NCBI GenBank assembly: GCA_025056175.1
Contig: JANWWK010000065.1
Coordinates: 1 to 40,440, forward strand
Reading direction: 5' to 3'
Length of the DNA: 40,440 nt
DNA from: Anaerolineales bacterium
GTDB lineage: Bacteria > Chloroflexota > Anaerolineae > Anaerolineales > Villigracilaceae
Shown one piece after another: positions 37,102-40,440 of the stretch (the stretch's first letter is position 1; every line of letters begins with the position of its first letter). The position numbers and the translations under genes are program-made. The notes under the pieces are model-generated. The model searched no databases. It was not told the DNA's origin and saw nothing but the letters and a program-made list of their open reading frames with translations.

Positions 37102-37860
37102 ATGACCACAGCAAATGCATACACCACGCCCGGACGACAACTCATCCGTCGGCTCTTGAAGGCGCTTTCAGTGCCAGCCTTTGCGCTGTTAACCGATTTA
37201 GAGATAACGGGACAGGAAAATTTGCCTCCCACCGGCCCACTCATCATGGTCGGTAACCATTTCAGTTTTATTGACCCCGTGTGTTTCGTGCGCCTGGCAC
37301 CCTGGCCGATGGAATTCCTGGGCGGCGCACACATGCCCCATGCTCCAGGTTGGGCAAAAATCATCCCCTTGCTCTGGGGGTATCACCCGCTCTACCGCGG
37401 CACAGGCGCAACGGATTCACTCAAAACGGCAGTCGAAATTCTCAAACGCGGCGGCGTGCTGGGCGTCTTTCCCGAAGCGGGGAACTGGGCTTCCGTTTTA
37501 CGCCCGGCGCGGCCCGGCACTGCGCTGATTGCCACGCTGAGCGGCGCACCGCTTCTGCCAGTTGGCCTGGTGGGTCTGAATGATGTCTTTCCCTGCCTGG
37601 TTCGTGGACGTCGCGCCCGCATCCGCTTTCAGATTGGCAAGCCGTTCGGCCCATTCCGTGCCAGCGGGCGTGGACGAGAACGCCGGGAACAACTGGAGGA
37701 AATCGGTCACGAAATCATGCGTCGCATCGCCGAGCTCATCCCCCCCGAACGGCGCGGATATTATTCTGACGACCCGCTGCTGAGCGCGGCAGCACGCAAC
37801 AGCGGACAGTATCCTTGGTCCGATAAAATCGAGGGACAGGTGGAAGGCAGCATCCGTTAA
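37102..37860 (+). CDS. Lysophospholipid acyltransferase (PlsC-like)
   Basis: A 252-residue acyltransferase that probably adds a fatty acid to lysophosphatidic acid or a related acceptor at the inner membrane. The catalytic motif NHFSFIDP (H and D of HX4D) is at about residues 52-59. The substrate motif appears as FPEAGNW at about 118, a variant of the usual FPEGTR. A later stretch LLPVGLVG is also typical. The C-terminus has a charged helix and a tail (YYSDDPLLSAA) that resembles other Chloroflexota members. The ATG at 37102 is preferred; an in-frame TTG at 37084 would overlap the preceding gene. Confidence 0.87.
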   Translation: MTTANAYTTPGRQLIRRLLKALSVPAFALLTDLEITGQENLPPTGPLIMVGNHFSFIDPVCFVRLAPWPMEFLGGAHMPHAPGWAKIIPLLWGYHPLYRGTGATDSLKTAVEILKRGGVLGVFPEAGNWASVLRPARPGTALIATLSGAPLLPVGLVGLNDVFPCLVRGRRARIRFQIGKPFGPFRASGRGRERREQLEEIGHEIMRRIAELIPPERRGYYSDDPLLSAAARNSGQYPWSDKIEGQVEGSIR

Positions 37861-37937
37861 GCCTGACCGCGACAAGGAGCACAAGATTTCTGACAGGTGG
37901 GAGAAAAGATGCTCACGCATTCTCTGCCTGATTCGTA

Positions 37938-37946
37938 TGATAAAAT
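37938..37946 (+). promoter_or_regulatory. Extended -10 promoter of the PqqD-HprK operon
   Basis: TGATAAAAT is identical to the element upstream of the MFS gene. It would start transcription near 37953, about 62 bases before the Tat protein gene. The rest of the gap 37861-38014 contains nothing else recognisable. Confidence 0.65.
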
Positions 37947-38014
37947 TACTTGCCTTTTGGTTCTAAATTTCATCGTTTTAGGCCAATATCACAACATCAA
38001 CAAGGACCACGACT

Positions 38015-38521
38015 ATGCCTGCCTCCAAGCTCTCTCGCCGCGATGCGCTGAAAGTGCTGGCCGCCGCCAGCGGCGCTGTTGCGCTCTCTCACCTGCCCAC
38101 CTCCTGGGGTAAACCTGAATTACAGGCAGGCGTGTTGCCAGCACATGCGCAGACTTCGATGACCCATGTGTTAAGCGCCCCGTTTCCGCCCGAAGAAATA
38201 GATTTGGGACAAAGTTATTGCTACGATGGAATCGTTATCCGCTTTACTGCGGTGATTACGCCACCAACGGCTGGAATTTCTTTGCAATATAGCCTGAATT
38301 ACACCGCGTCAGGCGCACCAGGTTCGATTACTGTCCCAAGCCCCACCATCGGGACGGTCAACACGAATGGAAGCGGTCAAGCTACAGTGGATGTCACCGT
38401 CTTACCAGATAGTCCTTTCTTCGGAACAACCGGCACTCTGACGGTCGTGTGGAGCTTCGTCAACCCCGCCGATGGCACAAACACCGTTTCGCAATCTTAC
38501 GATATCGAAATTGGTTGTTGA
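38015..38521 (+). CDS. Tat-exported small Ig-like protein, candidate substrate of the operon
   Basis: A 168-residue protein of unknown function. The N-terminus carries a twin-arginine signal (SRRDALKVL at residues 7-15, then a hydrophobic stretch and an A-H-A site near 43-45), so it is exported folded. The mature part of about 120 residues is Thr/Ser/Gly-rich with beta strands (IRFTAVITPPTAGISLQY, SGQATVDVTVL), like an Ig-type domain. Two cysteines are present, C69 and the very last residue C168. AAGGA precedes the ATG. Its stop overlaps the PqqD-like start (TGATG), which argues for a common function with the next genes. Confidence 0.72.
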   Translation: MPASKLSRRDALKVLAAASGAVALSHLPTSWGKPELQAGVLPAHAQTSMTHVLSAPFPPEEIDLGQSYCYDGIVIRFTAVITPPTAGISLQYSLNYTASGAPGSITVPSPTIGTVNTNGSGQATVDVTVLPDSPFFGTTGTLTVVWSFVNPADGTNTVSQSYDIEIGC

Positions 38522-38796
38522 TGACCATTCTGACGCTCATCCCTCGCCCGACCGCAGGATTTCAGGCACAAACCCTGGAGAACGAGGTCGTCCTGCTTCA
38601 TCCGATTCAAAATGTGATTATCTATCTCAACACCAGCGGCGCGCTGGTTTGGAGTCTGTGCAATGGAAAGCGTTCGGTGGCCGAAATCATCGAACTGCTG
38701 GTCGCAGTCTATCCCGAATCGGAAAAAGACATTCGCGCTGATGTTCAGCATATCGTTCAAGAATTGATGGGGCGTGGCGCCTTGACGGCAGCGTGA
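38521..38796 (+). CDS. PqqD-family small protein
   Basis: A 91-residue winged-helix-like PqqD domain protein. The pattern YLNTSGALVWSLCNGKRSVAEI (about residues 37-58) followed by DVQHIVQELMGRGAL is typical. PqqD-type proteins bind precursor peptides and present them to modifying enzymes; lasso-peptide and HPr-kinase-linked systems use such carriers. The ATG at 38521 forms a TGATG overlap with the stop of the Tat protein gene. Its own stop overlaps the next start (GTGA). An upstream in-frame start at 38449 would lie in the preceding gene. A PQQ pathway is unlikely, as no pqqA, C or E homologue is nearby. Confidence 0.85.
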   Translation: MTILTLIPRPTAGFQAQTLENEVVLLHPIQNVIIYLNTSGALVWSLCNGKRSVAEIIELLVAVYPESEKDIRADVQHIVQELMGRGALTAA

Positions 38797-39635
38797 ACAC
38801 GGCAATTTTCGTTTCTTTTGGCGGAAACGTTATCCGCTTTTCTGCCGAGCATCCGGCTTTGCTTGCCCCTCTTGCCGTTCATCTTCGGCACTGCCAGTCC
38901 CAAACAACAGCCTCTCCTTTGAGCGCATTTCATCTCACTGCCATTTCTGAGACATGGGTGCAAATCTCCGAAAATGGCAGTGTTTTGTTGCCACGCTTGG
39001 AGCGCGAAAGCGCCTGGCAGATTCTGATGCAGGAAAGCCTGACCCGCCTGAACGGGGCATGCACCTTGGGACCGGTTTTCCACGCTGCGGCGGTACAGGG
39101 CGAGCAGGGTGGGGTCATTCTTTGCGGGCCGAGCGGATGCGGCAAATCTACCTTAACAGCATGGCTGGTTTTGCATGGTTTTTGCTATCTCAGTGACGAG
39201 GTTATCCTCTATACAGGAGAAGGATACATCAGCGGTTTTGCGCGCTCCCTGGTGCTGAAAAACGGTTCAGCATTCATTCTGAAGTGCCTGACGGAAAACA
39301 TTCAGAGAGAAGGTCATCAACGCTTCTCCGATGGGAGCCTGTGGCTGGCCCCCCTTCTGCTCCAATCTATCGCCCCGTGCGTCCAAACGCTTCCCCGCTT
39401 GCTTTTGTTTCCACAATATCAGCCAGACGCCCCTCTGCGCGTAAGACCGCTCTCCTCTGCCGAAAGCCTGTTTCGACTGTTGCAAAACCTGGTTAACGCC
39501 CGTAATCTTGCACACAACGGCCTGGAAGCCGCGGCGCGTCTGGCGCACCAGACAAAAGCATACGCCGTCGTCTATTCTGACCTGAATGCTATCACCGCAT
39601 GGATTCGACAAACCATCAACAAGCCTATCGCCTGA
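38793..39635 (+). CDS. HPr kinase-like (HprK-related) P-loop protein
   Basis: A 280-residue protein resembling the catalytic domain of HPr kinase/phosphorylase. The P-loop is GPSGCGKST (112-120). H98 in FHAAAV and D135 in LSDEV align with the catalytic His and Asp region of HprK. The N-terminal 90 residues are not the HprK regulatory domain. HprK-related proteins of this size accompany PqqD-like proteins and nucleotidyltransferases, and one such kinase (paeninodin cluster) phosphorylates a lasso peptide. Here the target is unknown; phosphorylation of the Tat protein or of a peptide is a hypothesis. The GTG start is in a GTGA overlap with the PqqD gene. Its stop overlaps the next ATG (TGATG). 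Confidence 0.82.
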   Translation: MNTAIFVSFGGNVIRFSAEHPALLAPLAVHLRHCQSQTTASPLSAFHLTAISETWVQISENGSVLLPRLERESAWQILMQESLTRLNGACTLGPVFHAAAVQGEQGGVILCGPSGCGKSTLTAWLVLHGFCYLSDEVILYTGEGYISGFARSLVLKNGSAFILKCLTENIQREGHQRFSDGSLWLAPLLLQSIAPCVQTLPRLLLFPQYQPDAPLRVRPLSSAESLFRLLQNLVNARNLAHNGLEAAARLAHQTKAYAVVYSDLNAITAWIRQTINKPIA

Positions 39636-40440
39636 TGACGTTGTGCGCGCGCACCGGACAGCCCGAGGGATTTCAGGATTCCTTACGCGCCGTGTTGCAC
39701 ACATTTTCGGGATGGGACACGCTGCCAGCACAGGCCGAACAACACGGCATGGGGCCTTTGCTATGGTATCACCTGCGCGAGGAAAAAATTCCCTCCGAAA
39801 CCCGGCGCGCTTTGCAGGGACTATACTTACGTAACCGCGCCCTCAACCAGATTCACGCCGAAACGCTGCGGGATTTGCTGGAAACACTTGAGCGCCATGA
39901 CATTCGCCCTCTGTTGCTCAAAGGGTTGGCTCTGGCCTGGCAAATTTACCCCGACCCGGCGCTGCGTCCCGTCAGCGATATTGATTTGTTCGTGAATAAA
40001 GAACAGCTTCTGCCAACCATAGAGGCCCTGCGCCGCGCGGGCTATCAGTTTGAACCAATCCCGCCAAGCCTTCCCAAAGCCATCAACGCATACGCGCCGC
40101 CGCGCGCCGGCATCACCATACATCTGGAACTTCATCACTACGACCCGGCACACCGCCTGGAGAGCGAACCTTCTCCTGATGATGAGTTCCGCGACCTGCA
40201 CGAACCACCACAACAGATTCGCATCCTCGACCGCCAGGTGTTGACTTCGTCTCCGCTGGATACGTTGCTTTACCTGATGCGCCACCTGGTCATCCACCTG
40301 TTTCTTGCACGCACCGACCGCCCGATTGCCTTGAAATGGATGGCCGACATTATCAGCCTGGTCGAAGCGCAGGTGGATGCAGTGGATTGGAGCGCCCTCG
40401 ACCGGCGTGACCCGCTCTTTCGACGGCGGCTCGCCGTTCT
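39635..40440 (+). CDS. Nucleotidyltransferase family protein (NTP_transf_5-like), runs off the right edge
   Basis: An open reading frame of at least 268 codons, truncated by the window end. It has the Pol-beta-like nucleotidyltransferase layout of the 'uncharacterised nucleotidyltransferase' family: a helical N-terminus, then LLLKGLALAWQIYPDPALRPVSDIDLFV with K96-G97 and the catalytic D115-x-D117 pair, and a histidine-rich helix region (LLYLMRHLVIHLFLA) further on. The family transfers nucleotides to unknown targets. The ATG at 39635 overlaps the HprK-like stop as TGATG, the same junction as at 38519-38523. An alternative ATG at 39599 would overlap by 37 bases. The remainder lies outside the window. 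Confidence 0.82.
   Translation, partial: MTLCARTGQPEGFQDSLRAVLHTFSGWDTLPAQAEQHGMGPLLWYHLREEKIPSETRRALQGLYLRNRALNQIHAETLRDLLETLERHDIRPLLLKGLALAWQIYPDPALRPVSDIDLFVNKEQLLPTIEALRRAGYQFEPIPPSLPKAINAYAPPRAGITIHLELHHYDPAHRLESEPSPDDEFRDLHEPPQQIRILDRQVLTSSPLDTLLYLMRHLVIHLFLARTDRPIALKWMADIISLVEAQVDAVDWSALDRRDPLFRRRLAV

Follow-up and report, generated by a model that had tools for sequence, protein, structure and literature searches.

The last four genes of a 40,440-nucleotide contig from an Anaerolineales bacterium (GenBank assembly GCA_025056175.1, contig JANWWK010000065.1; the whole contig, C77 of genome G000, was analyzed and is called the window here) encode a protein exported by twin-arginine translocation (Tat), a PqqD-family protein, an HprK-like kinase, and a nucleotidyltransferase (NTase)-fold protein, which together probably form a system that modifies Tat-exported proteins guided by their leader. 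Comparison between genomes established that a Tat leader is conserved, that the four genes recur as a cassette, that the leader occurs together with one kinase clade, and that PqqD or HprK is fused to carbohydrate enzymes in leader-bearing genomes. Conservation and co-occurrence make it highly probable that the Tat protein is the substrate of the system. By analogy with the tailoring of lasso peptides, the modification would, on balance, be a phosphate, a sugar, or both.

The cassette and its enzymes

The four genes lie at 38015–40440 on the forward strand and overlap by 1, 4, and 1 bases, which confirmed the gene order and the TGATG, GTGA, and TGATG junctions described in the first-pass annotation of the window. 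The first junction (38519–38523) joins the stop codon of the Tat gene to the start of the PqqD gene, the second (38793–38796) contains the start of the HprK gene and the stop of the PqqD gene, and the third (39633–39637) joins the HprK stop to the NTase start. The Tat-exported protein (38015–38521, 168 residues), for which relatives were found, carries a signal that scores 19.0 bits against TIGR01409, above the cut-off of 16.7, and 18.4 bits against PF10518, below the cut-off of 22.7. Its leader is formed by residues 1–45 (38015–38149), with the arginine pair at residues 8 and 9 and a likely cleavage site, placed from an alignment (A1), after Ala-His-Ala. The 91-residue PqqD-family protein (38521–38796; PF05402, 62.8 bits against a cut-off of 23.4, E = 3.8e-17) is the proposed leader-binding adaptor.

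The kinase gene (38793–39635) starts with GTG and encodes 280 residues that match HprK_rel_A (TIGR04352) with an E value of 9.6e-29, but at 100.4 bits against a cut-off of 200. His97, Lys118, and Asp135 are invariant and Glu136 nearly so among 20 aligned rows, giving an H-K-D-E set, and an AlphaFold2 model (predicted local distance difference test score, pLDDT, 92.0) is closest in fold to PEPCK and then to HprK. The NTase-fold protein (39635–40440; NTP_transf_5, PF14907, E = 2.5e-44) is truncated by the contig end. Lys105, Gly106, Arg120, Asp124, and Asp126 (numbering of locus L065) are invariant in 17 rows, and the model of this enzyme (pLDDT 89.8) finds its closest folds in MenT1 (2.2e-4) and ANT(2'')-Ia.

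A second contig of the same genome, C85, overlaps the last 295 bases of the window at 97% identity (window 40146–40440 with L003:1–295) and completes the NTase gene, the remainder of which lies within L003:1–599. Since two contigs of one genome overlap at 97%, strain variation may be present at the contig ends of this assembly, and the overlap is perhaps that of a strain variant. Beyond the NTase gene, C85 encodes a small protein of 91 residues followed by a large cyclase/AAA/TPR-like protein, both named by reading, and the cassette very likely ends with the NTase gene. At the other end, the extended −10 promoter of the first-pass annotation was upheld as a string and not as a predicted site: TG-A-TAAAAT is present at 37938–37946 on the forward strand as a putative element, and a −35/−10 scan of 37700–40440 found no site.

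The shared Tat leader and its kinase clade

The leader follows the consensus RR..LK......W.KP......LPAHA, continued after the cleavage site by Q-x-S/T, and the conservation covers the first ∼47 residues of the proteins. Within it the block W-x-K-P-x6-L-P-A-H-A-Q (38105–38152 in the window), which begins with Trp31 and includes Pro34, is the proposed PqqD recognition element; its W, P, L, P, and A are invariant across 42 alignment rows, an invariance imposed by the search pattern on the pattern-derived rows and free in the rows taken from relatives. The mature parts that follow are barely alignable, with a mean column identity of 6% over 98 mature sequences. A DNA pattern for the block, fixing W, P, L/F, P, A, H, A, and Q and nothing after Q, was run over a contig collection described as 84,980 species and matched at least 118 stretches. 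Among the matches listed, those bearing a Tat signal came from Gammaproteobacteria, Desulfobulbaceae, Chloroflexota, one Verrucomicrobia, one Lentisphaerae, and "Marine bacterium B5-7," and the others were mostly chance. Ten leader-bearing genomes carried between 1 and 20 copies each.

Domain searches of the 98 mature parts at E 0.001 identified Fasciclin in three, endosialidase chaperone, glycine-rich, bacterial Ig, cadherin-like, and NOMO-like β-sandwich domains in two each, and NHL, CarboxypepD_reg, and the ALK/LTK glycine-rich domain in one each, with no match for at least 82. The domains that were matched suggest that the leader-bearing proteins are a set of extracellular proteins. The terminal cysteine to which the first-pass annotation had drawn attention is not a family trait: Cys is the last residue in 11 of the 111 leader proteins, and it was rejected as a general attachment point. 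What the family does have in common is the leader and a Ser or Thr at position 3 of the mature protein.

Assuming cleavage after AHA, mature residue 3 is Ser or Thr in 110 of the 111 leader proteins, a set derived from 138 leader open reading frames (ORFs) by merging copies and dropping four without the motif, and scored with a profile that includes those columns. A count free of this circularity, because the pattern specifies nothing after Q, was obtained from the listed pattern matches with RR, RK, or KR upstream, where Ser or Thr occupies the position in 103 of 110. On inspection, six of the seven exceptions do not have the surroundings expected of a Tat protein; in the remaining one (L165), the Ser lies one position later. 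Listed matches without RR, RK, or KR have Ser or Thr there in 4 of 14 cases, three of which (L141, L175, and L200) look like leaders without RR in the stretch examined. For ordinary Tat proteins, sampled from ten genomes (nine leader-bearing, G130 included), the figure was 1 of 21 by a rough regular expression with some misreadings; the 21 usable sites, several in the wrong frame, came from 30 loci, of which seven gave no site and two were leader proteins. Ser and Thr together make up 23% of the mature parts as against 11% of other ORFs longer than 150 residues in the same loci, a crude background that takes in mechanical ORFs, and runs of eight or more S/T/P residues were found in 9 of 111 leader proteins compared with 9 of 1581 other ORFs. 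On the prevalence of Ser and Thr at this position, mature residue 3, which is Ser48 in the window protein (38156–38158), is put forward tentatively as the acceptor.

The same genes are grouped in other Anaerolineae families in several orders (Tat-PqqD-HprK-NT, NT-PqqD-HprK-Tat, Tat-NT-PqqD-HprK, and others), with all four present in locus L065 of genome G130, and the block extends beyond Chloroflexota to Desulfobulbaceae, Verrucomicrobia, Lentisphaerae, and Gammaproteobacteria. Flanking gene families are rarely common to different loci (at most 4 of 21 Anaerolineae loci with PqqD and HprK, those four belonging to the window's own family), and the block is therefore a cassette and not a chance neighborhood. 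Two named strains make the system testable: Thiohalocapsa marina DSM 19078 (L297), where the leader gene has the NTase gene on one side and the HprK-PqqD pair on the other and the expected mature N terminus reads Q-G-S, and Desulforhopalus singaporensis DSM 12130 (L204), which is in the RR-bearing set among the pattern matches listed. Plasmids searched with the NTase returned only 31% matches, in Rhizobium, whose neighbors were uninformative, and gave no match to a typed consensus leader; a Methylosinus kinase locus was likewise uninformative for the cassette.

Of 298 Anaerolineae genomes, 20 matched the leader profile and 16 had an HprK scoring at least 200 bits; 15 genomes had both (Fisher, 3.5e-20, or 8.6e-8 by family, with 8 of 8 vs 3 of 50). 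Among 229 Gammaproteobacteria, the leader occurs in five and HprK at this score in four, all four with the leader. The leader profile matched over its first three quarters only in G091 and G115. Weaker HprK relatives are common, being present at E 1e-8 in 125 of the 298 Anaerolineae genomes, and the leader is absent from 38 further Gammaproteobacteria that have them. The sole Anaerolineae genome with a strong kinase and no leader, G205, is 77% complete. Among genomes with a leader and no strong kinase, G091 has a PqqD-deacetylase gene directly upstream of the leader gene, G097 and G200 have a weaker or broken-up kinase match at the same locus, the contig of G143 stops after the Tat gene, and in G285 one of four leader genes lies beside PqqD and NTase genes at a contig end.

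An HprK tree with midpoint root, from which stretches shorter than 150 residues and exact copies were left out, contained one branch (support 98/92) of 32 rows, 24 from leader loci and eight without a leader. Seven of these eight came from genomes with leaders elsewhere, the exception being G205. Related genomes compared for separation of the Tat gene from the PqqD-HprK pair thus have the two largely together, in 15 of 16 Anaerolineae and 4 of 4 Gammaproteobacteria kinase genomes, with many extra leader genes standing as orphans. The proposal in the first-pass annotation that the Tat protein is a substrate or partner of a modification system is strengthened by the conserved leader and by this co-occurrence with the kinase clade.

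Proposed mechanism and alternatives

In the proposed mechanism, the PqqD protein would act as a RiPP (ribosomally synthesized and post-translationally modified peptide) recognition element (RRE), binding the W..P......LPAHA region of the leader in the cytosol and holding the precursor for the kinase, which would phosphorylate a hydroxyl residue, most likely the Ser or Thr at mature position 3. The NTase-fold enzyme would then add a sugar or sugar-phosphate, much as is reported for PsmN acting on phosphoserine in the lasso peptide pseudomycoidin. A longer glycan could be built in Gammaproteobacteria, Desulfobulbaceae, and Verrucomicrobia, where PqqD or HprK carries fused glycosyltransferases and a fused sugar-activating enzyme. 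Once folded and modified, the protein would leave through Tat, and signal peptidase would remove the leader together with the recognition element. PqqD/RRE proteins bind leader peptides, according to the available part of PMC7470986. The available part of a review of pseudomycoidin states that PsmK phosphorylates Ser and that PsmN is required for the addition of one or two hexoses to the phospho-Ser, and leaves open nucleotidylation by PsmN combined with a host glycosyltransferase (PMC9266682).

Carbohydrate enzymes are linked to the system in leader-bearing genomes, where PqqD is fused to glycosyltransferases of families GT2, GT4, GT7C, GT10, GT25, and GT90, and also to polysaccharide pyruvyltransferase, 2-oxoglutarate (2OG) oxygenase, and polysaccharide deacetylase, the gene for the last of these fusions adjoining a leader gene. 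HprK, detected with a custom profile, is fused to GT2 and GT25 in L309 and weakly to GT2 in L110; in L301 it is fused to fucose pyrophosphorylase and GHMP kinase, which in L307 form a separate gene beside the cassette. A GDP-fucose O-fucosyltransferase gene adjoins the leader gene in L163, a gene that clusters with it occurs in L133, and a sulfotransferase gene lies between the leader gene and PqqD in L291. PqqD and HprK are themselves naturally fused in L298, L386, and L395, and the remaining scanned neighbors of leader loci were unrelated or without match. Two unusual RRE fusions were also observed, PqqD with a 2OG-Fe(II) oxygenase (L299:3249–5003) and PqqD with PhyH and GT7C and ankyrin repeats (L287:2884–5151).

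Several points weigh against a leader-guided modification of this kind. The 200-bit line was set after the gap in scores had been seen (219 then 134 bits in Anaerolineae, 217 then 163 in Gammaproteobacteria). Alignment A1 includes rows of G298, G306, and G500, and A2 rows of G298 and G430, all of which were searched later, and Anaerolineae rows are present in both alignments; once the genomes that contributed to A2 are removed, the Gammaproteobacteria test falls to 2 of 2 (p = 1.2e-4). G386 has the leader with neither an HprK match nor PqqD, the fusion kinase L298 of the leader genome G305 falls outside the HprK clade, and the leader-locus kinases L090 and L078 were too short for the tree. PqqD alone is common, in 24 of 25 leader genomes compared with 29 of 55 others, and its presence was rejected as a marker of the system as too widespread. 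In two of the fusions (L170 and L309:2012–3130) PqqD lies below the Pfam cut-off, and no carbohydrate enzyme was found beside the cassette of the window, most neighbors in other Chloroflexota being unscanned. A PqqD, HprK, or NTase ORF was found within 5 kb of 17 of 29 leader genes in L065–L092, of 24 of 73 in L103–L182 (loci of at most 8 kb), and of 10 of 35 in L287–L321 (regions partly chosen for PqqD). The remaining leader genes are orphans, which would require the enzymes to work in trans on numerous substrates. Finally, the Ser or Thr so near the point of cleavage could serve as a signal for processing.

The most serious alternative, although an unlikely one, is that the system phosphorylates or nucleotidylates its substrate and adds no sugar, for export quality control or regulation, with the glycosyltransferase fusions elsewhere being later additions. 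In its favor, the window cassette has just a kinase and an NTase, and the folds nearest to the NTase model are those of true nucleotidyltransferases; against it, several phyla join carbohydrate enzymes to the same adaptor or kinase, and PsmN is linked to hexose addition, although nucleotidylation is left open in the available part of that review (PMC9266682). It is less likely still that PqqD, HprK, and NTase act on a small molecule or envelope polymer and that the Tat protein is a functional neighbor, for example an exported binder of the product. The carbohydrate enzymes could make a polymer and many leader genes lie at a distance from the enzyme genes, but mature parts without mutual relation carry the conserved leader, the leader follows the kinase clade in its distribution, and leader-peptide binding is described for PqqD/RRE proteins (PMC7470986).

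Very improbable, and largely refuted, is a lasso peptide cluster of the paeninodin/pseudomycoidin type with its cyclase and peptidase located elsewhere: such clusters also contain an HprK-like kinase (PadeK/PsmK) and a nucleotidyltransferase (PsmN), and the H-K-D-D residues of the lasso kinases (PMC9266682, available part) are matched in the window kinase as H-K-D-E, but none of the 16 Anaerolineae genomes examined, G000 among them, has the leader peptidase PF13471, nor do G430, G300, and G302, and the substrate here is the 168-residue Tat-exported protein, with a leader common across phyla, and not a short precursor. The first-pass annotation had suggested that lasso genes might lie past the right edge; the continuation on C85 instead holds the small protein and the large cyclase/AAA/TPR-like protein, and no asparagine-synthetase-like cyclase was seen there by reading, no search having been made for that family itself. 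In T. marina (G298), the sole genome with PF13471 (on C22, and weaker on C55), the Tat cassette is separate, on C44, and PqqD and weak HprK matches lie within about 21 kb of the C22 gene. This lasso-like region (C22:214604–235425) holds two PqqD and two weak HprK matches besides PF13471.

Returning to the leader-guided system, the fullest form of the proposal, a route of bacterial protein glycosylation, is advanced with less assurance than the mechanism above. An RRE would read a conserved element that follows the Tat hydrophobic core and precedes the point of signal peptidase cleavage, the kinase would prime Ser or Thr at mature position 3, the NTase and RRE-fused glycosyltransferases would build the glycan in the cytosol, and Tat would export the product. 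One leader would serve up to 20 proteins per genome, and HPr-rel-A would be a sister system with a Tat substrate of its own. No description of such a system was found in the open-licence literature searched. If correct, the proposal would provide a substrate class for HprK-related kinase cassettes, HPr-rel-A included, that now have a family name only, would bring whole exported proteins, and not just peptides, within the reach of RRE-guided modification, and would define a leader that tags a protein for cytosolic glycosylation ahead of Tat export.

Related systems and further loci

The window system looks, from its sequences, like a sister variant of HPr-rel-A (TIGR04352 kinase, TIGR04353 PqqD, and a PF14907 neighbor) that lies outside the cut-offs of that system. 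Both have the same gene set, the window including the PF14907 partner. They differ in that the window kinase reaches 100.4 of the 200 bits for TIGR04352 and sits on a separate branch of the kinase tree, and the Tat partners of HPr-rel-A have another leader and other mature proteins; the window PqqD protein gave no match to TIGR04353 at E 1. A Tat-like protein adjoins the HPr-rel-A-type kinase locus at 16 of 21 loci, 13 identified by script and three (L401, L408, and L412) by reading, with script flags in L400 (one) and L403 (two) discarded as non-Tat; L395, L396, L403, L404, and L410 have no adjoining Tat-like protein. The 21 loci comprise 20 of the 38 Gammaproteobacteria with weaker HprK relatives and a Vibrio alfacsensis plasmid (L397–L414 and L392 among them). 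Two were scanned with NCBIfam and the rest were grouped by profile and tree: L414 scored 379 bits for TIGR04352 and 67.2 bits for TIGR04353, and the Vibrio plasmid kinase scored 324 bits for TIGR04352, with a small PqqD-like ORF without match. A Ser-rich motif, for example C-S/T-x-S-G-x-x-S-G-N-x-S, was found by regular expression near the mature start in 11 of the 16 Tat partners (two of them shorter), and the five partners that were scanned with NCBIfam matched no family.

Ser-rich adhesins are glycosylated in the cytosol and then exported by the accessory-Sec pathway, a route that is alike in modifying surface proteins with sugar ahead of export and unlike in its different set of enzymes, its lack of an RRE, and its use of Sec instead of Tat. 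The dystroglycan pathway combines a kinase with an FKRP-type phospho-sugar transferase of nucleotidyltransferase fold in one glycan pathway; this is an analogy only, as the match of the NTase model to the FKRP fold is weak (E = 0.018, rank 31). RRE surveys likewise describe a PqqD-like domain fused to a glycosyltransferase, but these fusions are not tied to Tat leaders or HprK cassettes in the available parts of the two papers (PMC7470986 and PMC12710340).

Further observations concern individual leader loci. A Desulfobulbaceae contig contains three tandem leader genes (L129:1282–2646), and in two leader proteins (L129:1282–1575 and L110:1860–2150) the mature part is mostly a Thr run. In four Arenicella bins and one other gammaproteobacterial genome, a large related protein is encoded directly upstream of the leader gene (L114:828–5912, L119, L160, L168, and L180); the one scanned, from L114, has Calx-beta and TSP3 domains, and the large protein and leader protein of this group appear as if they were a pair from one surface structure. 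Large related proteins also adjoin leader genes in L182 (776–7780), L140, and L174, of which the one scanned, from L182, contains SdrD_B and peptidase C25 domains.

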